Shown here: positions 10,824-31,433 of the stretch, one piece after another | Layout: each line of letters starts with the position of its first letter | How positions within the stretch are numbered: position 1 is the stretch's first letter | Origin: an uncultured Bacteroidia bacterium | GTDB taxonomy: Bacteria > Bacteroidota > Bacteroidia > NS11-12g > UBA9320 | Reading direction: 5' to 3' | Length of the DNA stretch: 35,401 bases | Assembly: GCA_905478335.1 (NCBI GenBank) | Contig: CAJQIC010000004.1 | Location: 1-35,401, forward strand | Notes under the pieces: generated by a model | What the model saw: the letters and a program-made list of their open reading frames with translations, nothing else | What the model was told of the DNA's origin: nothing | Databases searched by the model: none | Program-made: the position numbers and the translations under genes

Positions 10824-11762
10824 TTAACCCACCATTCCTCTTCCTTTTTTTACCAATTTGTTCTCCGCTTTTAATTGCTTTACAAGCTTGTCTAAAACAC
10901 CATTTATAAACTTGCTGCTCTGCGGTGTACTGTAATCTTTTGCCAGTTCCAGATACTCATTCAGACTGACCTTAATAGGTATATATGGAAAATGCATCAA
11001 CTCCGTTAACGCCATAGTCATCAATACCATGTCTGTTTTAGCAATACGTTCTTTATCCCACTTTGGAGCAGACTTGTCAATCAAATCTACAAACGTATCA
11101 TAATGCCGAATTGTTTTTTCAAGCAACTCTTCGGCGTATAACCAGTCAGACTCTTCCGTGTTGTTTCGGTTAGACTTGGTCGACTTTTCTGCCAGTACAC
11201 TTTTCGTAAATTGTTGCACTGCGTTTCGGACAGGAATTCGTTCGTCCTCCCACAGCATATTGATTTCTTCCATTTCTTGGGAAAAATCATCGTTTGCCTC
11301 AATGATGTACTTGTACAGTTGGACAAACCCTTTTTCTTGTTCTGCTTTGCTCGGATTATCGATGCTGAGATATTCCTCCATCAATTCACCCTTACGAATA
11401 CCATTGGCAACTGCCCTTAATACACCCGGGTGATCTTGCCAGCGATGCGCTGGCTTCTTCATGAAATGAGCAATCTCATCATGATGCACCAACCGCTCAT
11501 ACACCTCTGGGAACGAAAGGTTAGCATAAACGCGCTTGTCTTCCTCAGACGGCAAATACTTATTCTCAGCAGGATTCATTTGAGATCGCAAAAAGTGCGT
11601 TAATTCAATTGGGAATAGCAAAACAGTTATGAAGTTGTTCTCTATGCCTGAAACAGAATTTTTTAAGTACGACTTTGACTTATTTAAACTTGGAACCTCG
11701 TCCTGTAAATAAGCATATAAGGCTTGAAAAACCTTTATCCTAATGAGTCTTCTATTGAGCAT
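10824..11762 (-). CDS. nusB: Transcription antitermination protein NusB, long Bacteroidota form
   Basis: A 312-residue NusB. E. coli NusB has about 140 residues; Bacteroidota forms are twice as long, with an N-terminal extension that begins with the family start MLNRRLIRIKVFQALYAYLQ. The core NusB helices are in the C-terminal half (DWLYAEELLEKTIRHYDTFVDLI, then RIAKTDMVLMTMALTELMHFPYIPIKVSLNEYLELAKDYS and SSKFINGVLDKLV). NusB with NusE/S10 binds boxA RNA to assemble the antitermination complex on rRNA operons. It is the first gene of the minus-strand operon and has a TATCTTTG promoter box 13 nt upstream. Confidence 0.96.
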   Translation of the reverse strand: MLNRRLIRIKVFQALYAYLQDEVPSLNKSKSYLKNSVSGIENNFITVLLFPIELTHFLRSQMNPAENKYLPSEEDKRVYANLSFPEVYERLVHHDEIAHFMKKPAHRWQDHPGVLRAVANGIRKGELMEEYLSIDNPSKAEQEKGFVQLYKYIIEANDDFSQEMEEINMLWEDERIPVRNAVQQFTKSVLAEKSTKSNRNNTEESDWLYAEELLEKTIRHYDTFVDLIDKSAPKWDKERIAKTDMVLMTMALTELMHFPYIPIKVSLNEYLELAKDYSTPQSSKFINGVLDKLVKQLKAENKLVKKGRGMVG

Positions 11763-17956: not shown

Positions 17957-18025
17957 CTATTTGTGTAGCTTAATGTGCTTTAATCATATATAGATATTTC
18001 CACACTTCCTAAATCAGGAACCTAC

Positions 18026-18778
18026 TCATTCTTTTACAAACTTCTTTGTAAAATACTCCCCGTCAATTTGGGTACGAATGAAGTAAGTACCCGCTGGTTC
18101 TTCAGCAATTTTAAAGGTATACGGCTGCATAAGATTCTCATGGTCAGTTTCGGCGATTATTTGCCCAAGCGAGTTGGTTAAGGTTAAATGTCCTGCTATT
18201 GGTTCTTTTACATCAAATCTTACGGATACATGGTCATTTGCTGGTGAAGGGTAAGCTACCATGCCTGCTCCTTCTGGACTTCTTTTCAAATCCACAACTG
18301 CCTGACTACTGATAACGTACTTTTGTCGAATAAGAAAACGTTCAAATCCACCATAAAAAAATTCTTCTTCTGCCGACCTTTTCGCCACTTCGGATTGACT
18401 AATGTAATATCTGACAAATATTGAGTCCCCTAAGTTAAGCTTCGGTAATAAGGTGTCAACCATTCGCTTATACGATTGATGAACTGTAACCGGTTCTTCA
18501 GATTCATAGTCGTGTGAATATCCAACTGATGTGTGCACCACATCGCCTACCCTACTAAATTCCGTGTAAAAACTGGTAATTTCTTTGTCTACTATGGCCT
18601 GATTACTTGTGTCTTTGATGTCATCTAAATTCAATTTTTCTAACTCGAGAGCTGTAAAATTAGCCCCAGGATGTTGGACATATGCGGCTAGCGTTACGTA
18701 ATAGATTGGACACGCAGAAGGTGTATAAACGAGCAACACTGACAAGGCTGCCAGCAACAGTGGTCTAAGTAAATGCAT
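18026..18778 (-). CDS. Small secreted protein with T9SS type A sorting domain
   Basis: A 250-residue exported protein. Residues 1-22 are a signal peptide. The central 150 residues match no family I recognise and contain a charged helical stretch with DSIFVRYYISQSEVAKRSAEEE. The last 75 or so residues form a T9SS type A C-terminal sorting domain: it opens with VAYPSPANDHVSVRFD, then GHLTLTNSLGQIIAET, and ends with AGTYFIRTQIDG-type strands and KKFVKE. Such domains direct proteins through the type IX secretion system to the cell surface or the medium. An inverted repeat sits immediately upstream of its ATG. Confidence 0.85.
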   Translation of the reverse strand: MHLLRPLLLAALSVLLVYTPSACPIYYVTLAAYVQHPGANFTALELEKLNLDDIKDTSNQAIVDKEITSFYTEFSRVGDVVHTSVGYSHDYESEEPVTVHQSYKRMVDTLLPKLNLGDSIFVRYYISQSEVAKRSAEEEFFYGGFERFLIRQKYVISSQAVVDLKRSPEGAGMVAYPSPANDHVSVRFDVKEPIAGHLTLTNSLGQIIAETDHENLMQPYTFKIAEEPAGTYFIRTQIDGEYFTKKFVKE

Positions 18779-18782
18779 ATTT

Positions 18783-18821
18783 CATTTCAGTAAGGTGGAA
18801 AAACCTAAAACGGCTGAAATG
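18783..18821 (-). promoter_or_regulatory. Inverted repeat in the leader of the T9SS cargo gene
   Basis: On the minus strand CATTTCAG and CTGAAATG (8 bp, perfect) enclose a smaller pair AGGT/ACCT. The structure ends 4 nt before the ATG at 18778. It could be an RNA hairpin that affects translation, or an operator. Seen in the sequence; the role is inferred. Confidence 0.4.
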
Positions 18822-18845
18822 TCATTTTATTGTTAGGACAAAAAA

Positions 18846-18901
18846 TTGAAAGTTGAGAATTGAAAGTTGAGAATTGAGAGTTGAGAGTTGAGAGTTGAGA
18901 A
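18846..18901. repeat. Heptanucleotide tandem repeat, 8 copies of TTGARAR
   Basis: Eight successive 7-mers: TTGAAAG, TTGAGAA, TTGAAAG, TTGAGAA, TTGAGAG (three times) and TTGAGAA. The period is exact and only the two purine positions vary. Non-coding, between two minus-strand genes. Confidence 0.85.
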
Positions 18902-18913
18902 AATTAGTCAGTA

Positions 18914-18935
18914 AGAAGAAAATCGGCCTTCTTCT
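18914..18935 (-). terminator. Hairpin between inverted heptamer tracts, possible terminator
   Basis: AGAAGAA (18914-18920) and TTCTTCT (18929-18935) form a 7-bp stem with an 8-nt loop, 36 bp downstream of the flavoprotein gene stop on the minus strand. No clean U-run follows. Confidence 0.3.
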
Positions 18936-18947
18936 GATGAAAAACAT

Positions 18948-18975
18948 TGTCAACTATCATTTATCAACTATCAAC
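18948..18975. repeat. Second heptamer tract, opposite orientation, 4 copies (TATCAAC)
   Basis: TGTCAAC, TATCATT, TATCAAC, TATCAAC. The reverse complement GTTGATA is the same family as the TTGARAR tract at 18846, so the two tracts face each other across the hairpin at 18914-18935. The last copies run into the 3' end of the flavoprotein gene, whose TGA stop is part of a repeat unit. Confidence 0.65.
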
Positions 18976-20518
18976 TAATTATTTGGGCAATCGCCTTCGC
19001 ACAAGCAATACCGTCTAATGCTGCCGACATAATGCCTCCTGCATAACCAGCCCCTTCACCACACGGATACAACCCGACAATGTCAGGATGCTGCAGTGTG
19101 ATTTTATCTCGGGGTATTCTTACTGGCGACGACGTCCTGGATTCCACGCCGACAAGCATGGCCTCATTGCTGTTATATCCCTTTAGTCGTTTCCCAAAAT
19201 GCTGTATTGCGGGGCCAATTCTTGAATGAACCACCTGTGGCAAAACTTGTCTCAAATCCACCGATTCCACCCCTGGGATATAGGAAGTCTCTGCAAGCGA
19301 CGTCGACACCCGTTTTTTCACGTAATCCCCTACCCGCTGTGCAGGTGCTTGTAAGTTTGAACCGCCAGCAACAAAAGCTTTCTTCTCTACTGCGGCTTGG
19401 AATTCCATTGCAGCCAGTGGATTTTGTCTGCCGAACTGATTCCAATCTTCTGGTCTTATCTCAACGACAAAACCGCTGTTGGCGAATTCACCATTCCGTT
19501 TGCTGGGCGACCAACCGTTAACGACAACTTCGTCGCTTGCCGTCATCGCTGGGGCAATAATTCCTCCTGGACACATACAAAAACTAAATACTCCACGCCC
19601 ATTCACCTGATGAACCAAGGAATAACTCGCTGGAGGCAAGTATGCTCCTCTCGTCTTGCATTTATATTGAATTTGATCAATGAGCTTTTGCTGATGCTCA
19701 ATGCGCACACCCAAGGCGAAGGGTTTTGCCTCAATAACTATCTCTTGCTTATGCAGTAATTCAAAAACGTCACGTGCGGAATGACCAGTTGCTAAAATGA
19801 CCTGTTTTGTTGCGATTCGGCCGTTATTGGTTTCTACCGCTACAACCTCACCATTGTCTATTTCGATGCCTGTTAACTTGGTATTAAATCGCACCTCACC
19901 CCCTGCAGTTAGTATGGTTTCTCTAATGTCACTTACAATTTCAGGAAGTTTATTAGTTCCAATGTGTGGATGGGCTTCGTACAATATGTTGTCTGGTGCT
20001 CCATGATTGACAAATGTTTGCAGCACCTGTTTGATCTCACCCCTTTTTTTGCTTCGTGTATATAATTTGCCATCTGAGAATGTACCTGCCCCGCCTTCTC
20101 CAAAGCAATAATTGCTATCGATGTGCACGTGTTGTTTTCTAAAAATATCAACTAAATCTCTTCGTCTCTCTTTTACGGGCTTACCTCTTTCTATAACAAT
20201 GGGTTTAATTCCAGATTCAAGCAATTGCAGTGCAGCAAACATCCCTGCCGGACCAAAACCAACAACAATGGCCGTGTCGTCGGTGTTTTCCACTCGCGGT
20301 GTAAATGTCGGTTGATCTTCAAAAGGTTCTTGCTGAAGTGAGACACGAAATCGGTTTACAATCGGCTCTTTACGGGCATCCAACGACTTTTTATCAATGC
20401 GATAATACCATCCGTCTAGGCTTCTGATTCTGGCATTTTTACATATCGCGCGCTCAATTGACTCCACCATAGTAGACTCCTTTAAAGGCAGCTTAAATTC
20501 AATCGATTTTTGACTCAA
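18971..20518 (-). CDS. FAD-dependent dehydrogenase (COG2509 family)
   Basis: A 515-residue flavoprotein of the COG2509 group, annotated elsewhere as NAD(P)/FAD-dependent oxidoreductase; substrate unknown. Residues 1-75 are a small alpha/beta N-terminal domain (IEFKLPLKE, then YYRIDKKSLDARKEPIVN), typical for the group. The FAD-binding motif VVGFGPAGMFAA is at 85-96, followed by the acidic E of VIERG, GEGGAGTFSDGKLYTR, the ATG-type motif VILATGHSARD and the C-terminal GLYPCGEGAGYAGGIMSAA. The start must be TTG 20518, since an in-frame TAA lies just two codons further upstream and the first beta-strand begins at once. Divergent from the transketolase operon. Confidence 0.9.
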   Translation of the reverse strand: MSQKSIEFKLPLKESTMVESIERAICKNARIRSLDGWYYRIDKKSLDARKEPIVNRFRVSLQQEPFEDQPTFTPRVENTDDTAIVVGFGPAGMFAALQLLESGIKPIVIERGKPVKERRRDLVDIFRKQHVHIDSNYCFGEGGAGTFSDGKLYTRSKKRGEIKQVLQTFVNHGAPDNILYEAHPHIGTNKLPEIVSDIRETILTAGGEVRFNTKLTGIEIDNGEVVAVETNNGRIATKQVILATGHSARDVFELLHKQEIVIEAKPFALGVRIEHQQKLIDQIQYKCKTRGAYLPPASYSLVHQVNGRGVFSFCMCPGGIIAPAMTASDEVVVNGWSPSKRNGEFANSGFVVEIRPEDWNQFGRQNPLAAMEFQAAVEKKAFVAGGSNLQAPAQRVGDYVKKRVSTSLAETSYIPGVESVDLRQVLPQVVHSRIGPAIQHFGKRLKGYNSNEAMLVGVESRTSSPVRIPRDKITLQHPDIVGLYPCGEGAGYAGGIMSAALDGIACAKAIAQIIS

Positions 20519-20539
20519 AATTATTATCCATTAACTATC

Positions 20540-20582
20540 CACAAATATTTACATAAATGAATATAATAAGGACCTTTGTGGC
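20540..20582. promoter_or_regulatory. Divergent promoter region with 7-bp inverted repeat
   Basis: CCACAAA (20540-20546) and TTTGTGG (20576-20582), 29 nt apart, in the 79-bp space between the flavoprotein and transketolase genes. The right half includes GACCTTTG, one base off the TAnnTTTG box for the plus strand; the left half read on minus gives AATATTTG, one base off for the other gene. The symmetry may simply come from the two promoter boxes facing each other. Confidence 0.35.
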
Positions 20583-20597
20583 TTAAATTATCCCGCT

Positions 20598-21443
20598 TTG
20601 AAGACTGTAGCTGAATTAAATGACATCGTAAAACAAGTTCGACGTGACATAGTACGCATGGTGCATGCTGTACAATCAGGTCACCCAGGAGGTTCTTTAG
20701 GTTGTGCTGAATACTTTACTGTGTTGTATCAAAACACAATGTCGTATTCTGCAGTACCTTTTAATATGGAAGGCAAAAACGAAGACGTTTTTGTTTTAAG
20801 CAACGGCCATATCAGCCCGGTTTTTTATTCGACCTTAGCACACGCTGGGTATTTCGACAAAAGCGAGTTGGCAACATTTAGAAAACTAGAATCAAGACTG
20901 CAAGGCCATCCTGCAACGGAAGAAGGCTTGCCTGGTATTCGTATTGCTTCAGGATCATTAGGACAAGGATTATCCGTCGCCGTAGGGATTGCACAGTCTA
21001 AAAAACTAAACAAAGATGCGCAAAACGTATACGTTTTAATGGGCGATGGCGAATTGCAAGAAGGTCAGAATTGGGAAGCCATAATGTATGCTGGCCATAA
21101 CAAGGTTGACAACATCATTGCCACGGTTGATTTTAATAAAGCACAGATAGACGGTTCTACAACCGACATTATGGGTTTTCACGAGTTAAATTCCAAGTTT
21201 GAATCGTTTGGATGGGATGTAATGGAAATGGATGGAAACGACGTAGCCTCTGTAACTGCCGGACTTGAAGAGGCGAAACAAAGAAGTGGAAATGGTAAAC
21301 CAGTGGTAATTATCATGAAAACTGAAATGGGCAATGGCGTTGACTTTATGATGGGCTCTCACAAATGGCACGGGATACCACCAAATGACGAACAATTAGC
21401 CTCTGCTTTAGACCAAAATATCTCAACTATCGGCGATTATTAG
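20598..21443 (+). CDS. Transketolase, N-terminal (TPP-binding) subunit
   Basis: A 281-residue half of a split transketolase (pentose phosphate pathway, two-carbon transfer). It holds the thiamine diphosphate binding site: GDGELQEG at residues 149-156 with the Asn of TVDFNKAQIDG, plus the conserved histidines in SGHPGGSLG (His29), LSNGHISP (His71) and GHP (His104). Split transketolases are usual in Bacteroidota, and the two subunits are normally next to each other; here the C-terminal subunit begins 1415 bp later, after a VWA gene. The start is TTG at 20598; no ATG lies before MVHAVQSGHPGG, where essential sequence has already begun. Confidence 0.95.
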   Translation: MKTVAELNDIVKQVRRDIVRMVHAVQSGHPGGSLGCAEYFTVLYQNTMSYSAVPFNMEGKNEDVFVLSNGHISPVFYSTLAHAGYFDKSELATFRKLESRLQGHPATEEGLPGIRIASGSLGQGLSVAVGIAQSKKLNKDAQNVYVLMGDGELQEGQNWEAIMYAGHNKVDNIIATVDFNKAQIDGSTTDIMGFHELNSKFESFGWDVMEMDGNDVASVTAGLEEAKQRSGNGKPVVIIMKTEMGNGVDFMMGSHKWHGIPPNDEQLASALDQNISTIGDY

Positions 21444-21490
21444 TTGATGTAGCACACTATTTGATGTCTGTCTTAGGTTATAAGCAATAT

Positions 21491-22852
21491 ATGAAACATG
21501 TTATTTTAATATGTTTTGCTGTGCTCCTAAGTGTAAAGGGCATTGGTCAAACATCAGAACCACAAACTCGAATACTATTCTTGTTTGACGCGTCATTCAG
21601 TATGACGAATAAGATGGGTCGCAACGATTCGAGAATGAAAGTAGCCAAGAAGCTACTCGGTCGGATGGTTGATAGTCTTGAAAAGATTGATGGGTTAGAA
21701 ATTGCCTTGCGTGTATACGGTCATCAATACACAACAAAAGACTACAACTGTAAAGACACCAAACTGGAAGTTGGATTTAACCCCAACAACCACGAACAAA
21801 TTAAAAGTCGGCTTAACGAGATTAAACCGAGTGGCACAACGCTCATCGCTTACTCTCTAGAACAAGCCGCTTACGACTTTCCCGTAAACAGTACTTCTCG
21901 AAATATTGTCATTCTGATAACCGATGGCATCGAAGAGTGCAACGGAGACCCTTGTGCTGTATCACAAGCCTTGCAAAAACAGGGGGTATTACTCAAGCCA
22001 TTTATTATTGGCGTGGGTTTAAACGAGGATTTTAGAAAACAATTTGACTGTGTAGGTAAATATTTTGAAGCCACCACCGAAGCGGAATTCAAAGAAACAT
22101 TGGCCATTGTTGTGTCTCAGGCGTTAAGTAACACTACCATTACCGTTAATCTGAACAACACAGAAGGAAAGCCATTGGAAACCAATGTAAATATGTCGTT
22201 TGTCGATGCCTACTCAGGTAAGTTTATTGCCAATTATGTACACACAATGAATCGAAGAGGCTTCCCGGATACTTTATATATCGACCCAATTTACGACTAC
22301 GATATCATTATACATACCATTCCCCCGTTGGTCAAAAAACAAGTTTCAGTGCCTGCAGGCAAACATACCACTGTAGACTTTGACGCTCCTCAAGGGAATT
22401 TAGAATTGAATGTAGGCGGTGTCTCTGGATATAAAAATTTACAAGCAATTATTTACAAACCGGGAACAAAGGAAATTGTCCATGTGCAATCCTTCAACAC
22501 TAAAGAGCCATATATAACAGGCAAATATGATATTGAAATTCTGAGTTTGCCTCGAATTTTCAAAAACGACATCCCGATTGTTCAGTCAAAAAAGACCAAT
22601 CTTAGGATCCCACAACCAGGGAGTGTCAACCTCATAACGAAGACACGATATTGGGGAGATATTTACCAAATTAAAGGGGACTCCAGAACTTGGGTATGCA
22701 ACATAGACCTTGACGGAAACAGTCAATTCATTGCCATGCAGCCAGGTAATTACGTGCTCGTATTGCGCGGCAAAACAGATACAAATATTGAGAACTCCAA
22801 AGAAGAGAAGTTCATCATAAATTCAGGAAAGGTAACAAACATCAAAATATAG
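21491..22852 (+). CDS. Exported von Willebrand A (VWA) domain protein between the transketolase subunit genes
   Basis: A 453-residue exported protein. The signal peptide is MKHVILICFAVLLSVKGIGQ; ATG 21491 is chosen because this peptide starts there, though the frame is open to ATG 21464 and TTG 21461. Residues 27-215 are a VWA domain with an intact metal-ion-dependent adhesion site: D33-A-S35-F-S37, Thr116 in PSGTTLIA and Asp145 in ITDGIEEC. Residues about 223-453 are beta-rich repeats, probably Ig-like or prealbumin-like (QVSVPAGKHTTVDF, then FIAMQPGNYVLVLRGKTD). Partner and role unknown. It lies 47 bp after the N subunit and 6 bp before the C subunit of transketolase, in the same direction. 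Confidence 0.87.
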   Translation: MKHVILICFAVLLSVKGIGQTSEPQTRILFLFDASFSMTNKMGRNDSRMKVAKKLLGRMVDSLEKIDGLEIALRVYGHQYTTKDYNCKDTKLEVGFNPNNHEQIKSRLNEIKPSGTTLIAYSLEQAAYDFPVNSTSRNIVILITDGIEECNGDPCAVSQALQKQGVLLKPFIIGVGLNEDFRKQFDCVGKYFEATTEAEFKETLAIVVSQALSNTTITVNLNNTEGKPLETNVNMSFVDAYSGKFIANYVHTMNRRGFPDTLYIDPIYDYDIIIHTIPPLVKKQVSVPAGKHTTVDFDAPQGNLELNVGGVSGYKNLQAIIYKPGTKEIVHVQSFNTKEPYITGKYDIEILSLPRIFKNDIPIVQSKKTNLRIPQPGSVNLITKTRYWGDIYQIKGDSRTWVCNIDLDGNSQFIAMQPGNYVLVLRGKTDTNIENSKEEKFIINSGKVTNIKI

Positions 22853-22858
22853 TAATCA

Positions 22859-23818
22859 ATGGTCAACACTGAAGTTTTAGAAAAAAAAGACACCCGCTCA
22901 GGATTCGGAGCAGGACTGCTCGAATTAGGCAGAACAAACCCTGAAGTTGTAGCACTTTGTGCCGACTTAACAGGTTCGCTTAAAATGAATGCATTCGAAG
23001 ACGAATTCCCAGACCGATTTTTTCAGGCGGGTATTGCTGAAGCCAATATGATTGGAATGGCAGCAGGTTTAGCAACCGGAGGCAAGATTCCTTTTACAGG
23101 AACGTTTGCTAACTTTTCTACCGGACGTGTGTATGATCAAATACGACAATCCGTAGCCTACTCCGAAAAAAACGTTAAGATATGTGCATCGCACGCTGGA
23201 CTGACCTTAGGAGAAGATGGAGCCACTCATCAAATTTTGGAAGACATTGGATTAATGAAAATGTTACCCAATATGGTGGTAATTAACCCATGTGATTACA
23301 ATCAGACTAAGGCGGCGACCATTGCCATAGCTGAGCATCACGGACCATGTTACCTTCGATTTGGTCGTCCAAAATGGCCAGTTTTCACTGACCCAAATCA
23401 AAAGTTTGAGATTGGAAAAGCATGGACGATTCAAGAAGGAACGGATGTTACCATTTTTGCAACAGGCCATTTGGTTTGGAAAGCGATGGAAGCGGCAAAT
23501 GAATTAGAACAACAGGGCTTATCTGTGGAATTAATAAACATTCATACGATTAAACCTCTTGATGATGCTGCTATATTAAAATCTGCCTCAAAAACGGGTT
23601 GTGTTGTTACTGCGGAAGAACACCAGATGAATGGTGGATTAGGTGACTCGGTATGCCAATTGTTGGCACGCAACACCCCTACCCCAGTGGAAATGGTGGC
23701 TGTTGATGATCAATTTGGAGAAAGTGGTAAGCCTGAACAATTATTAGACAAATACGGTTTAGGTACAGTGGACATTGTGAATGCTGTTCAAAAAGTGATT
23801 GCGCGTAAAAATGGATAA
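22859..23818 (+). CDS. Transketolase, C-terminal subunit
   Basis: A 319-residue second half of the split transketolase: the pyrimidine-binding domain with the catalytic Glu61 in [18 protein letters not shown], the following [20 protein letters not shown], and the C-terminal domain with [17 protein letters not shown], typical of transketolase and DXS proteins. Works as a heteromer with the product of 20598-21443. Its last 8 bp overlap the start of dapD (ATGGATAA at 23811-23818), which points to translational coupling with a lysine/peptidoglycan gene. Confidence 0.95.
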
Positions 23819-24626
23819 CAGACAGACAAAAATTGAAGCGATTTGGGATAACCGAGAGTTACTCAAGGAGGAATCAAGCAAAGAATTAATCCGTACGGTT
23901 ATTGCCGACTTAGATTCTGGTGAACTACGCTGTGCATCGCCATCTGCTGATGGCTGGGTAGTGAATGACTGGGTTAAGAAAGCGGTAATACTATACTTCC
24001 CCATCCAAAAAATGGAAGTGAGTCATGCTGGGCCAATGGAGTTTCATGACAAAATGGAACTTAAAAAGAACTACAAGGAATTAGGAATACGTGTAGTTCC
24101 ACACGCCGTTTCTCGATATGGAAGTTACATCGCACCTGGCGTTGTTTTGATGCCGAGTTATGTAAACATCGGCGCATTTGTTGATTCAGGTTCTATGGTC
24201 GACACATGGGCAACTGTTGGAAGCTGCGCACAGATTGGCAAAAACGTACACCTCTCAGGTGGAGTGGGTATAGGCGGGGTTTTAGAACCTGTTCAAGCTG
24301 CTCCTGTGATTATCGAAGACAACTGCTTCATTGGATCAAGGTCTATTATTGTTGAAGGTGTCCATGTAGGATCAGAAGCTGTTATCGGTGCAGGAGTAAC
24401 GTTGACGATGTCAACCAAAATTATTGACGTAAGCGGCGAAGAGCCTAAAGAATACAATGGCTATGTTCCACCAAGGTCAGTTGTTATACCAGGCATGCGC
24501 ACGAAAAAATTCCCAGCTGGCGAATATCAAGTTCCTGTGGCATTGATTATCGGACAACGTAAAGAAAGCACGGACAAAAAGACGAGCTTGAACTCTGCTT
24601 TACGGGAGTTTGATGTAGCGGTGTAG
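23811..24626 (+). CDS. dapD: 2,3,4,5-tetrahydropyridine-2,6-dicarboxylate N-succinyltransferase
   Basis: A 271-residue enzyme (E. coli DapD has 274) that succinylates tetrahydrodipicolinate in the succinylase branch to meso-diaminopimelate and lysine. The centre is a left-handed beta-helix built from hexapeptide repeats: [20 protein letters not shown], then [20 protein letters not shown], then [20 protein letters not shown]. The first part holds the family's helical domain with TADGWVV-like [16 protein letters not shown], and the end has [13 protein letters not shown] 23811 gives the normal length; the frame is open four codons further upstream. Likely co-transcribed with transketolase. Confidence 0.95.
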
Positions 24627-24704
24627 TAAGTATTGAATATAAAGTAGTGAAATGGATGAATCAGGTCCTGATGACTCAAGACTTCTTAAGTCAATCAATC
24701 AATA

Positions 24705-24732
24705 TTTTCAACTTTCAATTCTCAATTATCAA
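24705..24732. repeat. Third heptamer tract, 4 copies
   Basis: TTTTCAA, CTTTCAA, TTCTCAA, TTATCAA. On the minus strand this reads TTGATAA, TTGAGAA, TTGAAAG, TTGAAAA, the same TTGA-based unit as at 18846 and 18948, 5.8 kb away. It lies directly upstream of the glycosyltransferase promoter box. Confidence 0.6.
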
Positions 24733-24733
24733 C

Positions 24734-24741
24734 TAAGTTTG
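24734..24741 (+). promoter_or_regulatory. Promoter -7 box of the glycosyltransferase gene
   Basis: TAAGTTTG matches TAnnTTTG and ends 4 nt before the ATG at 24746. If used, transcription would begin at or next to the start codon (leaderless message). It abuts the heptamer repeat tract. Confidence 0.4.
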
Positions 24742-24745
24742 CGCC

Positions 24746-25840
24746 ATGCGAATTGGCTATGATGCAAAACGGTATTTTCACAACTGCACGGGACTAGGAA
24801 ACTACTCCCGCACTTTGGTGAACGGTATGATGGCACAATACCCAGAGCATGAGTACAGTCTGTTTGACAAAAACGCCCCAAAACATCTTGATTTACCGGC
24901 CAGCATTGTATCTAAACGCAAGTCGGCATTTTTTTGGCGACAACTGGGTATATCCAAAGACATTAACAAAAGAGGGCTAGATGTTTACCATGGTTTAAGT
25001 GCAGAATTGCCTTACTCAAGACCAAAAAAAGCAAAACTTGTGGTAACGATTCATGATCTGATATTCATGAAATTCCCTGAATATTACAAGACTTTAGACC
25101 GCTTGATTTACGCGCGCAAAACGGAAAATGCGCTTCGTACGGCCGATATGGTCATTGCCACCAGCAAGCAGACCAAAGCTGATTTGCAAGACCTTATGCC
25201 TGATGATGAAATCCCCATTGAGGTAATTTATCAAGATTGTGATCCATTGTTCTATTCGTCAGTCGGAGAATCTCAATTGAGCAAAACGGTAAAGAAGTAC
25301 AACCTTCCAGAAACCTATATCTTGATGGTTAGTAAATTCGAAAAACGAAAGAATCACTTGAACGTGCTAAAGGCGCTTTTATCCTTACCGAATGAATCCC
25401 TACCTGTTGTTATGGCAGGCAAAAAGGGAGACACCTATGATGAGGTAAACTCGTTTATTGCAGCAAACAACTTATCATCGCGCGTTAAACTACTTGTGGA
25501 TGTGCCAACACAAGATCTTCCGAGATTGTACAAATCTGCCATTGCCAGTATCTTTCCTAGTTTGTATGAAGGATTTGGGATTCCTGTTTTAGAAAGTCTT
25601 GTCTCTGGAACGCCTGTTTTAACAAGCCACAAAAGCTGCATGGAAGAAATTGCCGGCGACGCCGCGTTGTATTTTGACCCTAAAGATTCGGAAAGTATTG
25701 CCTATTCAATCAGCCAGATTGAAGACACCATGACACTTGACGGGCTCAACCTCCAAGTCCCAAATAGAATAGAACCCTTTAGTAACGCCAACATTTTGGT
25801 TCAACATAATTCATTATATATGCGCTTATGCTCGAAGTAG
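24746..25840 (+). CDS. GT-B glycosyltransferase, family 4 type
   Basis: A 364-residue retaining glycosyltransferase of the GT4 group, cytoplasmic or membrane-associated. The N-terminal Rossmann half begins MRIGYDAKRYFHNCTGLGNYSRTL, with the acceptor-side GLGNYSR motif and VVTIHDLIF. The C-terminal half contains LMVSKFEKRKNHLNVLKAL and the EX7E element EGFGIPVLE in FPSLYEGFGIPVLESL, which binds the nucleotide sugar. Donor and acceptor cannot be told. It is not in a polysaccharide cluster; the only close neighbour is the CvfB-like gene, which it overlaps by 13 bp (25828-25840). Confidence 0.92.
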   Translation: MRIGYDAKRYFHNCTGLGNYSRTLVNGMMAQYPEHEYSLFDKNAPKHLDLPASIVSKRKSAFFWRQLGISKDINKRGLDVYHGLSAELPYSRPKKAKLVVTIHDLIFMKFPEYYKTLDRLIYARKTENALRTADMVIATSKQTKADLQDLMPDDEIPIEVIYQDCDPLFYSSVGESQLSKTVKKYNLPETYILMVSKFEKRKNHLNVLKALLSLPNESLPVVMAGKKGDTYDEVNSFIAANNLSSRVKLLVDVPTQDLPRLYKSAIASIFPSLYEGFGIPVLESLVSGTPVLTSHKSCMEEIAGDAALYFDPKDSESIAYSISQIEDTMTLDGLNLQVPNRIEPFSNANILVQHNSLYMRLCSK

Positions 25841-26661
25841 GTCAATATCACAATTTAACAGTCTTACGAGACACCAGTGTTGGAATGTTTCTTGGTGATT
25901 TAAAAGGAAATGAAATTTTATTACCGTTAAAGTACATCCCCAAAGGACTGGCTATTGACGATAGTATTGAGGTTTTTGTATACAAAGATTCTGAAGACCG
26001 ACCTATTGCCACCACCTTAAAACCACTGGTATTACCTGGTGAGTTTGCTGTGCTAATGGTGAACGATGTCTCCAGTTTTGGCGCGTTTTTAGAAATGGGT
26101 CTTGAAAAAGAGCTACTCGTTCCTTATAAAGAACAAAACCAAAACCTAACGCGCGGAAAAAAAGTGCTTGTTTATGTATATCTAGACGAGCTTACGAATA
26201 GGTTAGTCGCTTCTTGCAAAACCAATAAGTTTGTTGAAAGAGATGATATCGCGTTAGAAGTCAATGAAGAAGTAAGTTTACTTATTGGCCCAAGAACGGA
26301 TATGGGTACAAACGTCATAATAAACAATACCTACGCAGGACTTTTGTACGACAACGAAGTATTTAAGCGGTTACACTTGGGAGATAAAACCACTGGTTTT
26401 ATTCACAAACTTCGTGAAGACGGAAAAATTGATGTTAGGCTGCAACCAGCAGGATTTGAAAACATTGACGCGTTTGAGCAACAATTACTGGATGTAATCA
26501 ACAAACATGACGGCACACTGCCAATTGGTGACAAATCGCCACCAGAAAAAATCTATGCTATCGCAGCCATGAGTAAAAAGAACTTTAAAAAAGCGGCAGG
26601 TGGTTTATATCGCAAAAAATTAATTACCATTTCTCCGCAAGCATTGGAATTGGTTAAATAG
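25828..26661 (+). CDS. CvfB-type S1 RNA-binding protein
   Basis: A 277-residue cytoplasmic protein of the CvfB family: tandem S1-like OB domains followed by a C-terminal winged helix. Seen here: a first domain with DTSVGMFLGDLKGNEILLPL, a second with VNDVSSFGAFLEMGLEKELLVPY (the clearest S1 motif), a third with GLLYDNEVFKRLHLGDKTTG, and the winged helix around KIYAIAAMSKKNFKKAAGGLYRKKLI. CvfB proteins bind RNA and affect virulence or translation in Firmicutes; the role in Bacteroidota is unknown. It begins inside the glycosyltransferase gene in another frame. Confidence 0.92.
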   Translation: MLEVGQYHNLTVLRDTSVGMFLGDLKGNEILLPLKYIPKGLAIDDSIEVFVYKDSEDRPIATTLKPLVLPGEFAVLMVNDVSSFGAFLEMGLEKELLVPYKEQNQNLTRGKKVLVYVYLDELTNRLVASCKTNKFVERDDIALEVNEEVSLLIGPRTDMGTNVIINNTYAGLLYDNEVFKRLHLGDKTTGFIHKLREDGKIDVRLQPAGFENIDAFEQQLLDVINKHDGTLPIGDKSPPEKIYAIAAMSKKNFKKAAGGLYRKKLITISPQALELVK

Positions 26662-27671: not shown

Positions 27672-27736
27672 CCAAAATTTCAGGGAAGGCACAGGACATT
27701 CCGGTGTCGACACAACTCCCTGAAAATAAGAGGTTA

Positions 27737-29527
27737 ATGAAAAACTTTTCATCAAAAAGTATGCGATTACAGTTTCTTAAAACGAGTGCTTTTGCATTTT
27801 TACTCGTTCTATCATCTCTGCAAGGATTTGCAGCATTAAAAATTGAAACAAGTGCCACTGGACTTCCTGTATCGGAAGAAACAATTAAATCAGGGGAGGC
27901 TTTGTTCAAATCCAAGTGTCAATCTTGTCACCAACTAAACAGACGTTCTACTGGTCCTGCCTTAACGGGTGTGACAGAACGACGAGAAATGGATTGGTTG
28001 ATTCAGTGGATTCGAAACAACAACGAGTTACGTCAATCAGGTGATGCAGACGCCATCGCTATTTACAATGAATACAATGGTACTGCCATGAATGTATTTG
28101 CTGATTTGAGCGACGACCAAATCAAATCCATTTTAATGTATACCGAAAACGGCCCTTTAGCAGCTCCAGTTGTTGAAAGCGGAGGCGTTGAACAAAAACT
28201 AGACGAAGGGTTATTTAATAAAACCAATTGGGTCTTGTTTTGGTTGTCAATACTCGTTTTTGTCGTGATTATTCTAATCATTAAAACAATTGACATTGTT
28301 GGTAAACTAACTGGCAAAGAAGTAATTCCTTGGAACAACATTAACGCTGGTTTGATGCTGGCATTCTTGATCGTAGGAATGATTGCTGGTTTATATGAAC
28401 TGTCAATCCATAGTAAATATCTATTACTCTCAAATGCGTCTTCTGCGCATGGTGGGGAACTAGACAGAATGATGAAGATTACCTTTATCATCACTGGATT
28501 TGTATTTTTTGTTACTCAAATCGTCCTGTTCACATTTGCATTCAAGTACCGAGCGAAAAAAGGTGTAAAAGCGTTACACTATCCGCACAACGATAGATTA
28601 GAAATTATTTGGACTGCAATTCCAGCCGTTGTGTTGACCATATTGGTTTTAGGCGGGTTAAAAGCTTGGACCCACATCAACGAAAAGCCAGCTGAAGGTA
28701 CAGCTCAAATAGAAGTATTTGCACAGCAGTTTGCTTGGCAAGTGCGCTATCCTGGTGCCGATGGTAAGTTAGGTAACTCAAGTCACAACTTAATTTCAGA
28801 AAAATCAAATCCATTAGGTGTTGCCGTTACCTACAAAGCACAGGAAATCTTAACCGAGTTAGAGGCAGACTTAAAATACTACGAAGAAGCCAAAGCCGGA
28901 TTACCTGAAAAACTTGGAGATTTAAAATCTACTTTAGGTGGACGTGTTGGTAAGGATCTCAAAAATCACCTTAAACTCATTGAAGAAATTGAGTCGGGCA
29001 AAGAAGCTTCTTTCTACGATTTACAATTGAGAAGAAGAAACACTCAGATCAAGCGAATTAAATTGTCATTATCTGGAGATGCGCCATTATATACAGCAGC
29101 TGCTAACGATGACATTATCTCAGACGAGATTCACTTGGTAGTAAACGAACCTATTACGTTTAAGTTGCGTTCAAGAGACGTAATACACAGTGCTTTAATG
29201 AAAGAATTTAGAGCGCAAATGAACGTTGTTCCAGGTATCCCTACACAATTCACGTTTACTCCAATCACTACAACTAAAGGGCGTAGAGATGAATTAAAGA
29301 ACCCTGAATTTGACTATCACGTTATCTGTAACAAGATATGTGGAAACTCTCACTTCAACATGAAAATCAAAATCGTCGTTGAAACACAGGCAGAGTATGA
29401 TAAATGGATGGCAGATCAAAAAGCAACGTTTGCTCGAGAAGAAGCTGAAGAAGCGCCTGCTGAGGCACCAGCTGAAGAGAACACAACTGAACCAACCGAA
29501 AACAGTGGCGAAGTAGCCATGAACTAA
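27737..29527 (+). CDS. coxB: Cytochrome c oxidase subunit II with N-terminal heme c domain
   Basis: 596 residues, much longer than a plain subunit II (about 250-350). In order: signal peptide (1-32); a cytochrome c domain (about 48-138) with heme motif CQSCH at 61-65 and likely axial Met118 in GTAMNVF; two extra membrane helices (about 165-185 and 204-222); the usual subunit II helix pair (about 247-268 and 290-309); and the CuA domain. CuA ligands are present: His484, then C531-N-K-I-C535-G-N-S-H539-F-N-M542. About 90 residues (362-455), charged and helical, are inserted in the CuA domain. The tail is Glu/Ala/Pro-rich. ATG 27737 is taken because AGAGG precedes it; ATG 27761 is possible. Confidence 0.93.
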   Translation: MKNFSSKSMRLQFLKTSAFAFLLVLSSLQGFAALKIETSATGLPVSEETIKSGEALFKSKCQSCHQLNRRSTGPALTGVTERREMDWLIQWIRNNNELRQSGDADAIAIYNEYNGTAMNVFADLSDDQIKSILMYTENGPLAAPVVESGGVEQKLDEGLFNKTNWVLFWLSILVFVVIILIIKTIDIVGKLTGKEVIPWNNINAGLMLAFLIVGMIAGLYELSIHSKYLLLSNASSAHGGELDRMMKITFIITGFVFFVTQIVLFTFAFKYRAKKGVKALHYPHNDRLEIIWTAIPAVVLTILVLGGLKAWTHINEKPAEGTAQIEVFAQQFAWQVRYPGADGKLGNSSHNLISEKSNPLGVAVTYKAQEILTELEADLKYYEEAKAGLPEKLGDLKSTLGGRVGKDLKNHLKLIEEIESGKEASFYDLQLRRRNTQIKRIKLSLSGDAPLYTAAANDDIISDEIHLVVNEPITFKLRSRDVIHSALMKEFRAQMNVVPGIPTQFTFTPITTTKGRRDELKNPEFDYHVICNKICGNSHFNMKIKIVVETQAEYDKWMADQKATFAREEAEEAPAEAPAEENTTEPTENSGEVAMN

Positions 29528-29558
29528 TTGAATTAAAATTTTAAGTAACGATACGAAG

Positions 29559-31433
29559 ATGAGTAACGATCACGGACATCACAAAGAAACCTTCATTTCG
29601 AAGTACGTATTTAGTATGGATCATAAGATGATATCCAAGCAATTCCTGATTACAGGAATTATCATGGGTGTTATGGGTGTGGCCATGTCGATATTATTTC
29701 GTTTGCAACTTGCTTGGCCAGACACGAGTTTCCCAATTTTAAACTGGTTGTTTGGTGACCAATGGGCACCCGAAGGCCGTTTAGATTCTGGATTTTACAT
29801 GGGATTGGTAACAATTCACGGTACAATCATGGTATTCTACGTACTTACAGCAGGATTGAGTGGTACTTTTTCGAACCTTTTGATTCCATTACAAGTTGGC
29901 GCACGTGATATGGCATCGCCATTTATGAACATGCTTTCTTACTGGTTCTTCTTTCTTTCTAGTGTCGTGCTAATGAGTAGCATGTTTGTTTCTACTGGAC
30001 CTGCATCAGGTGGTTGGACAATCTATCCTCCATTAAGTGCATTAGCCAAGGCAATGCCTGGTTCCGGTTTAGGAATGACTTTGTGGCTGATTGCCATTAT
30101 TCTGTTTATTGTATCCGCCCTGCTTGGCGGTATTAACTATATCACCACAGTTCTGAACATGAGAACGAAAGGTATGTCAATGAACAGAATGCCACTAACT
30201 ATTTGGGCATTCTTATTGACAGCAATCTTAGGATTACTTTCTTTCCCAGTTTTACTAGGTGGTGGTTTACTGCTTATGTTTGATCGACTGGCAGGTACTA
30301 GTTTCTACTTATCAGATATTTTCTTAGGTGGTGGTATTGGTGCACTTGAACAATCAGGTGGTAGTCCAATCCTTTTCCAGCACTTGTTCTGGTTCTTAGG
30401 TCACCCAGAGGTTTACATTATCATTATGCCAGCCTTGGGTATTACCTCTGAAGTTATAGCAGTAAATTCAAGAAAGCCAATTTTTGGTTATACGGCTATG
30501 GTTATCTCATTGATAGGTATTGCAGTATTGTCCTTTTTGGTTTGGGGTCACCATATGTTTATAACAGGTATGAATCCTTTCTTAGGAACAGTATTCCTGA
30601 TTATGACCTTAATTATTGCCGTTCCATCTGCCGTAAAAACCTTCAACTATCTGGCCACTTTATGGAAAGGTAGTATTCGGTTTACAAACGGGATGATGTT
30701 TGCCATTGGTTTGGTTTCCTTTTTCATCACTGGTGGATTAACTGGGTTATTTCTAGGAAATGCGGCGTTAGATATTTCTTTACACGATACGTACTTCGTT
30801 GTAGCTCACTTCCACTTAGTTATGGGTAGCTCTGCGATATTCGGGATGATGGCAGGTATTTACCATTGGTTCCCTAGAATGTTTGGAAGAACAATGAATA
30901 AGACATTGGGCTATATTCATTTTTGGTTGACATTTATCTCTGCGTATATGGTGTTCTTCCCAATGCACTTCCAAGGTTTGGCTGGTGTACCAAGAAGATA
31001 TTACACATTTGATATACTTCCTGAATTTGCTCCATGGTTAGACGTTAACGTGTTTATTACGATGGCAGCTATATTAGGAGGCGTTGCACAAATCATATTC
31101 CTATGGAACTTCTTCTCAAGCATATTTGCTGGAGAAAAATCAAGTCAAAACCCATGGGGTGCGAATACACTTGAATGGACATCTCCTGTAGAGCATATCC
31201 ACGGCAACTGGCCTGGTGAAATTCCAACTGTCTATCGTTGGCCTTATGACTACAGTTTACCTGATATGGATGAGGATTTTGTTCCTCAGAACGTCCCAGA
31301 TGAAGGTAGTAGTGAAGAAATACATGTGACACCAGTTAATCCTGTGTCGTCAGATGCAAAGAAAGAACCTGAAGAAAGTAACGTAATGTTCTTTACGATG
31401 GTTAAAAACTGGTTCGGGTTAGGTAGAGCATAA
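29559..31433 (+). CDS. coxA: Cytochrome c oxidase subunit I
   Basis: The 624-residue catalytic subunit of an aa3-type heme-copper oxidase, inner membrane, 12 or more helices. Visible metal ligands: His87 (TIHGTIMVF, low-spin heme a), His282 of LGHPEVY, with Tyr286 as the His-Tyr cross-link (CuB), His331-His332 in WGHHMF (CuB), and HDTYFVVAHFHLVM at 409-422, with His417 (heme a3) and His419 (heme a). The HPEVY tyrosine makes this an A-type oxidase. The C-terminal 70 residues are a soluble acidic extension (PDMDEDFVPQNVPDEGSSEE). It follows coxB by 31 bp. Confidence 0.98.
   Translation: MSNDHGHHKETFISKYVFSMDHKMISKQFLITGIIMGVMGVAMSILFRLQLAWPDTSFPILNWLFGDQWAPEGRLDSGFYMGLVTIHGTIMVFYVLTAGLSGTFSNLLIPLQVGARDMASPFMNMLSYWFFFLSSVVLMSSMFVSTGPASGGWTIYPPLSALAKAMPGSGLGMTLWLIAIILFIVSALLGGINYITTVLNMRTKGMSMNRMPLTIWAFLLTAILGLLSFPVLLGGGLLLMFDRLAGTSFYLSDIFLGGGIGALEQSGGSPILFQHLFWFLGHPEVYIIIMPALGITSEVIAVNSRKPIFGYTAMVISLIGIAVLSFLVWGHHMFITGMNPFLGTVFLIMTLIIAVPSAVKTFNYLATLWKGSIRFTNGMMFAIGLVSFFITGGLTGLFLGNAALDISLHDTYFVVAHFHLVMGSSAIFGMMAGIYHWFPRMFGRTMNKTLGYIHFWLTFISAYMVFFPMHFQGLAGVPRRYYTFDILPEFAPWLDVNVFITMAAILGGVAQIIFLWNFFSSIFAGEKSSQNPWGANTLEWTSPVEHIHGNWPGEIPTVYRWPYDYSLPDMDEDFVPQNVPDEGSSEEIHVTPVNPVSSDAKKEPEESNVMFFTMVKNWFGLGRA

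Follow-up and report, generated by a model that had tools for sequence, protein, structure and literature searches.

An exported-type VWA protein gene between the two split transketolase genes of Bacteroidia

The window examined here, a stretch of 35,401 nucleotides from an uncultured Bacteroidia bacterium, was found to carry a gene for an exported-type protein with a VWA domain between tktN and tktC, which encode the two subunits of a split transketolase. The order tktN>VWA>tktC is an old, conserved arrangement, with all three genes on the same strand and contig in 82 of 97 related genomes (own genome included) and in 28 families of a wider class sample. The reading held here, with moderate confidence, is that the VWA protein is a periplasmic, metal-dependent binding protein belonging to an old, envelope-linked transketolase operon. 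Its main rival is that an otherwise useful gene sits in this place as a frozen accident.

The tktN gene (20598-21443, + strand) encodes the N-terminal, thiamine-diphosphate subunit of 281 amino acids from a TTG start (Transketolase_N, PF00456, E-value 3.4e-54). The tktC gene (22859-23818, + strand) encodes the C-terminal subunit of 319 amino acids, with the pyrimidine-binding domain (Transket_pyr, PF02779, 3.5e-42) and the C domain (Transketolase_C, PF02780, 9.5e-31). The VWA gene runs on the same strand from an ATG at 21491 to a stop ending at 22852. It is separated from tktN by 47 bp (21444-21490), which hold neither a TANNTTTG box nor a terminator-like site on the + strand, and from tktC by 6 bp (22853-22858). 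The mechanically predicted open reading frame (ORF) begins at an upstream TTG and has 463 amino acids; the ATG start giving 453 amino acids was used instead. ORF coordinates and Pfam thus agree with an earlier, sequence-only reading of this DNA, which had described the same-strand trio with these gaps. As in other split transketolases, each of the two genes accounts for one half of the enzyme by its Pfam domains; what differs from the ordinary case is the third, exported-type gene kept between them. In its own genome (2.78 Mb, 74 contigs) the VWA gene has a single match.

Conservation of the gene order

Among the 97 relatives, matches to VWA were found in 91, to tktC in 91 and to tktN in 92. 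With the best VWA piece per genome used, the 15 genomes outside the 82 with the full order either had the genes on different contigs (seven) or were without one or more of them (eight). The sequence-only reading had taken the two subunit genes to be normally adjacent; tktN directly adjoined tktC in none of the 97. It had also named a VWA gene sitting at unrelated loci in close relatives as a finding against its view; the gene was found in the same place in the relatives that could be judged. In one genome of the sister family (G056, C1:1312093-1315300), the VWA gene between tktN and tktC was matched only in pieces with internal stops, which reflects either decay or sequencing errors.

In a sample of 247 genomes, taken as the class Bacteroidia, 175 had a match to VWA, 209 to tktC and 211 to tktN. 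Among the matches listed for all three genes the order was kept in 87 of 103 genomes from the 28 families, neighbours being counted as adjacent when at most 2 kb apart (one gap exceeded 300 bp in seven of the 87); some genomes appearing there without VWA do count as VWA-bearing in the tally of 175. Fetched loci add five families with the order (f10, f21, f46, f54 and f62). A second fetched set was picked mostly as seemingly non-intact, and five of its loci proved intact. The genome-record loci, which are the best 80 of 495 from a VWA-alignment scan and lean to near relatives, showed the full order in 54 cases, and two more end at a contig break after VWA. In a later analysis of this set four of the 80 were dropped, and two more (L130 and L171) were left out of A2.

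As a control of specificity, 22 window genes were sought in 20 intact loci, one per family. The flanking sequence covered was roughly 8 kb, with 1.2 kb downstream of tktC in the case of L095; in the window, some of the genes are as far as 12 kb away. These loci were picked as intact, and the presence of tktN, VWA and tktC in 20 of 20 is by choice. Of the other 19 window genes, only those for the flavin adenine dinucleotide (FAD)-dependent protein (2/20) and for the protein at 10824 (1/20) were found. It is therefore the trio, and not the surrounding region, which is conserved.

The possibility of a simple insertion, also raised by the sequence-only reading, would imply that an unrelated gene recently entered the transketolase operon in this genome alone. 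The only point found in its favour is how strange an exported protein looks within an enzyme operon, and it is refuted by the order shared across relatives and class families. In the window's family, moreover, VWA distances across 30 loci track those of both tkt genes, with r 0.81 for tktC and 0.82 for tktN (reached in 0 of 2000 permutations). The probability of a recent insertion is considered negligible. A literature search, judged by titles and abstract openings, returned nothing on the tktN-VWA-tktC arrangement, and the word "transketolase" is absent from the passages of PMC7159879 and PMC9723704 drawn on below.

Sequence and predicted structure of the VWA protein

The protein comprises a signal-peptide-like stretch (residues ~1-20), a VWA domain (~22-214) and C-terminal beta modules (~214-453). 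The match to the VWA family PF00092 has an E-value of 3.1e-10 (41 bits against a Pfam cut-off of 23.8). The metal ion-dependent adhesion site (MIDAS), which the sequence-only reading had described as intact (DxSxS, Thr, Asp), is present as D33-x-S35-x-S37, T117 and D145. It is invariant throughout a set of 92 distinct full-length proteins, which includes the window's own and was limited to those whose match reaches near the C-terminus. Four cysteines (87, 150, 155 and 187) are invariant in the same 92 proteins, which suggests disulfides. Conservation is also strong in parts of the C-terminal region. The ratio of nonsynonymous to synonymous substitution (dN/dS) against the nearest relative was 0.010, with dS already at 1.3; three other comparisons yielded no dS. 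MIDAS sites are described in passages of PMC7159879 as binding peptide ligands via a divalent metal. In the VWA protein the site would most likely carry a divalent metal ion and have a protein or peptide as its ligand.

The N-terminus is hydrophobic and signal-peptide-like, in keeping with the signal peptide proposed in the sequence-only reading: a Kyte-Doolittle mean of 2.0 over 12 residues is reached by 85 of the 92 proteins, and the AlphaFold2 model places a helix at residues 2-17. A second membrane span, sought as a 19-residue Kyte-Doolittle window of at least 1.6 after residue 45, was found in none of the 92, and a lipobox-like pattern in one. The sorting domain of the type IX secretion system (Por_Secre_tail) gave no match in the VWA protein at E<=0.001; the same Pfam scan detects this C-terminal domain in the window protein encoded at 18026-18778 (- strand). 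From its signal-peptide-like N-terminus and the absence of a lipobox and of any other membrane span, the VWA protein would be exported to the periplasm.

The AlphaFold2 model of the whole protein has a mean predicted local distance difference test (pLDDT) score of 87.9 and a predicted TM-score (pTM) of 0.66. Structure comparison assigned its first half to the VWA fold (Z about 20). A search of Protein Data Bank sequences gave seven matches, the best being 4cn8 at 1.6e-16, in the VWA half. Reading a function from single families in the list of fold matches was rejected, as that list is filled by VWA domains of many functions. Among them are the BatB/aerotolerance VWA proteins of Bacteroides (3ibs and 4jdu; Z 20.5 and 20.4 over 173 and 169 residues). 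The window protein differs from BatB in having no membrane span after its N-terminus and a long C-terminal half of its own, and it scored 12.1 bits against a cut-off of 350 with the NCBIfam BatB model (Leptospira). In BatA and BatB, membrane spans flank the VWA domain, an arrangement not found in any of the 92 proteins. No MoxR model, the sign of a MoxR AAA+ gene, was matched among the 18 window ORFs scanned with Pfam, and the immediate neighbours of the VWA gene are the tkt genes.

The C-terminal region (residues 213-453; 22127-22849, + strand) was predicted alone with a mean pLDDT of 93 and 21 strands, and is read as about three beta-sandwich modules in the model. Its fold matches were weak and transthyretin/CnaB-like (Z 7.3-8.5 among the matches listed), and no Pfam family was matched at its cut-off in this region of the window's protein. 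The modules could form a stalk or a second binding surface. A VWA domain combined with beta-sandwich modules is also found in VWA pilus adhesins (SpaC, 6m48; RrgA, 2ww8; Porphyromonas Mfa5, 6tnj). SpaC gave the best Foldseek match to the whole model (E 5.0e-14) but has a TM-score of only 0.35, and Mfa5 reaches Z 20.4 on the VWA part. Unlike these adhesins, none of the 92 proteins has an LPxTG sortase motif, and the gene lies in a transketolase operon and not beside pilus genes.

Plasmid VWA proteins of Deinococcus and Alphaproteobacteria share 26-33% identity over the VWA half, and the matches stop at query residue 191-259 of 453 (12 of 79 matches seen); none of the 79 covers 80% of the query at one place. 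In a phylum-wide profile search, 8 of 247 genomes were matched; two of the eight lie outside the class, and their matches are confined to the VWA half. Only six candidates per genome were scored among the matches listed, which makes this weak evidence of absence. The C-terminal half was seen only within the class in this analysis.

Operon membership and the downstream ECF sigma module

In 99 distinct intact loci the median gap was 47 bp between tktN and VWA and 12 bp between VWA and tktC, with gaps of at most 100 bp in 74 and 90 of the loci, respectively. TAnnTTTG is described in passages of PMC9723704 as the -7 box of the main flavobacterial sigma factor. Ahead of tktN the TANNTTTG box was found at 46 sites in 96 regions of 150 bp (43 regions contained it) against 7.8 expected; in the tktN-VWA regions it was not enriched, with 3 sites in 99 regions against 6.2 expected. 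Terminator-like sites between 20400 and 24800 numbered 7 against 4.2 expected, the only one on the + strand lying inside tktC at 23361. Sigma-70-type promoters (10 found, 10.9 expected) were uninformative. A promoter and terminator belonging to the VWA gene itself, which the sequence-only reading had named as a point against its view, are thus not indicated. Co-transcription of tktN, VWA and tktC is likely, and the VWA gene is probably an old, retained member of the Bacteroidia transketolase operon, transcribed from a promoter ahead of tktN.

In many families the gene run continues past tktC. The recurrent neighbours, recognized through VWA genes without a split tkt beside them, are an extracytoplasmic function (ECF) sigma gene, a small protein Y and a short exported protein Z. 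An ECF gene follows tktC within 2 kb on the same strand in 69 of 104 class genomes among the matches listed (23 families, median gap 62 bp; the count omits two second tktC rows, G188 and G250). Among 75 fetched loci in which 700 bp or more could be inspected, 26 showed the same, the fused enzyme of L205 being counted. The Pfam domains of the ECF genes are Sigma70_r2 (3.4e-17 in L111) and Sigma70_r4. Protein Y has one hydrophobic stretch (by eye) and no Pfam family, and is a probable anti-sigma factor. Protein Z of L111 resembles the LTXXQ/Spy family at 3.9e-4, below the Pfam cut-off, and that of L205 was without a family. In G109 (C110:4353-9563) tktC is followed on its own strand, after 3.75 kb, by an ECF gene, which may belong to the same module with additional genes inserted.

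In Labilibaculum euxinus (L205, 5908-11133) the order is VWA, fused transketolase, ECF, Y and Z. The fused enzyme has 686 amino acids (Transketolase_N, 1.7e-93, Pfam); its best NCBIfam model, TIGR00232, scored 620.9 bits, below the cut-off of 682.25. It is only 28-34% identical to the window's two subunits and is therefore not a simple recent fusion of subunits of the window's type. The only tktC match in this genome (29% identity, in a frame of 645 amino acids) is taken to be a DXS-type protein, and no split-type tktC was found there. A fused transketolase of a different type, in the place which split tktC holds in other families, hints that the link between enzyme and locus is under selection.

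From the continuation of the VWA-tkt run into ECF, anti-sigma-like and Spy-like genes, a role in cell-envelope upkeep appears most likely for the VWA protein, which would be made together with transketolase without being part of the enzyme. The sequence-only reading had proposed that expression of the VWA gene is tied to central carbon metabolism. The operon-like layout is compatible with this and that reading is partly supported overall, but the ECF module often carried by the wider operon suggests a link to the cell envelope no less than one to carbon metabolism. Sedoheptulose-7-phosphate and erythrose-4-phosphate, products of transketolase, feed cell-surface sugars and aromatic compounds, and this supply would be one possible reason for a link between transketolase and the envelope.

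Several observations weigh against an envelope-linked transketolase operon with the VWA gene as a member. In the VWA-tktC regions TANNTTTG occurred at 14 sites in 9 of 99 regions against 4.0 expected, and in some lineages tktC could be transcribed from a promoter of its own; all of the box counts come from related, non-independent loci and were set against an expectation from single-base shuffles. The window itself has no exact TANNTTTG on the + strand between 19360 and 24733. VWA and tktC were both matched in 164 of the 247 class genomes, tktC only in 45, VWA only in 11 and neither in 27 (Fisher p 6e-9, a test which ignores kinship); the VWA protein is thus dispensable for split transketolase, and transketolase for the VWA protein. 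Among the matches listed, tktN lies directly beside tktC without VWA in four f42 and two f16 genomes. At class depth (37 loci), VWA distances show hardly any agreement with those of tktC (r 0.19; 154 of 2000 permutations did as well) and a modest one with those of tktN (r 0.34; 17 of 2000), against r 0.56 between tktN and tktC. This falls short of strict vertical co-inheritance across the whole class, and saturation, paralogy or transfer may all play a part. VWA and ECF were both found in 131 genomes, VWA only in 44, ECF only in 48 and neither in 24 (p 0.21, same test), and at E<=1e-30 this ECF was found in none of the 38 genomes of the window's family, own genome included.

If the VWA protein acted on transketolase itself, by helping the split enzyme to assemble or by regulating it, this would suit both the position between the two subunit genes and the association of VWA with tktC. 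The VWA N-terminus is signal-peptide-like, however, whereas those of the subunits are not (by eye), and each gene also occurs without the other in the counts above. A transketolase assembly factor is disfavoured on these grounds, and direct action of either kind is judged very improbable.

The frozen accident deserves more weight. It proposes an old entrant that persists only because a gene lying between two others can hardly be lost without damage to tktC, so that its place is uninformative about function. The tight spacing agrees with this, as do the weak distance agreement at class depth and the lack of a VWA-ECF association, and the six f42 and f16 genomes indicate that loss is tolerated. 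Furthermore, the VWA gene is separated from tktN as well as tktC in several f29 genomes, G118 and G304, and f52 has no split tktC for it to adjoin. However, the gene is full length in 21 examined loci without a split tkt beside it (picked for VWA presence), and conservation is strong at the MIDAS, at the cysteines and in parts of the C-terminal region. The VWA protein is therefore functional, and a frozen accident explains its place but not the protein; as an account of the place it is quite possible, but on balance doubted.

In those 21 loci, ECF and Z were shared neighbours in five loci each, other neighbours were shared by groups of two to four loci, and the Pfam names of 10 other neighbours showed no common theme. 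Since the VWA gene is kept without transketolase or sigma factor, its protein has an independent role, and the transketolase operon is a frequent, not obligatory, home of the gene. Seven f43 genomes (G137, G176, G209, G239, G268, G295 and G322) have two VWA matches each, the second copy in G322 (L114) lying away from tkt and adjoining an M23 peptidase gene.

The VWA protein might instead be a periplasmic sensor or effector of the adjacent ECF module, with transketolase as a rider. The frequency of ECF after tktC is in line with this, and without split tkt the VWA gene immediately adjoins ECF-Y-Z in three f52 genomes (L111, L112 and L124) and in L176. Among the genomes of these loci, no tktC match was found in G156, G192 and G333; in G156, G192 and the L176 genome the tktC search gives only 29-32% matches in long frames. 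The window's family argues otherwise, with VWA in 35 of 38 genomes and this ECF in none, as does the non-significant co-occurrence. In 13 class genomes VWA is separated from tktC or lies on another contig (some maybe through assembly breaks); 11 of these have a listed ECF, which adjoins tktC in eight. In the sister family, 49 of 59 genomes have this ECF, and 46 of the 49 have a listed tktC match; the two genes are on different contigs in 44 and on the same contig, at least 50 kb apart, in two. An ECF sensor or effector is regarded as unlikely.

The reading of a periplasmic binding protein in an envelope-linked transketolase operon can be extended, tentatively. An old operon of tktN, VWA, tktC, ECF, membrane protein and Spy-like protein could connect the supply of sugar phosphates by transketolase with a circuit for envelope stress, in which the VWA protein would be the metal-dependent periplasmic binder or sensor; this proposal is possible but rather doubtful. 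If the link is functional, central carbon metabolism would be tied to envelope upkeep across much of Bacteroidia, and a conserved, uncharacterised exported family present in 175 of 247 class genomes would gain a role. Strains of two named species, Labilibaculum euxinus and Splendidivirga corallicola, carry the VWA gene, the latter (L188) within the complete tktN>VWA>tktC order, which makes the question testable.

Neighbouring genes in the window

The ECF/anti-sigma/Spy-like module found downstream of tktC in other families is not present at the window's locus. The position which the ECF gene holds in many of them is occupied here by dapD (23811-24626, + strand), encoding tetrahydrodipicolinate N-succinyltransferase (PF14805, 5.1e-22). 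Its in-frame ATG lies within the end of tktC, giving an 8-bp overlap, and the operon therefore probably runs on past tktC to include this enzyme of lysine and cell-wall precursor synthesis. A dapD gene was found anywhere in the locus in only 2 of the 80 genome-record loci.

Within 18000-26000 no RNA element matched Rfam at gathering score, and a PADLOC scan for defence systems gave no match for three window proteins and three L205 proteins. Ahead of tktN lies a divergent gene for the FAD-dependent protein (18971-20518, - strand), the next most frequent neighbour, seen in 13 of 80 loci. Further downstream, at 27704-31433, the window carries cytochrome oxidase genes, a protein with a COX2 transmembrane and a cytochrome c domain being followed by COX1.

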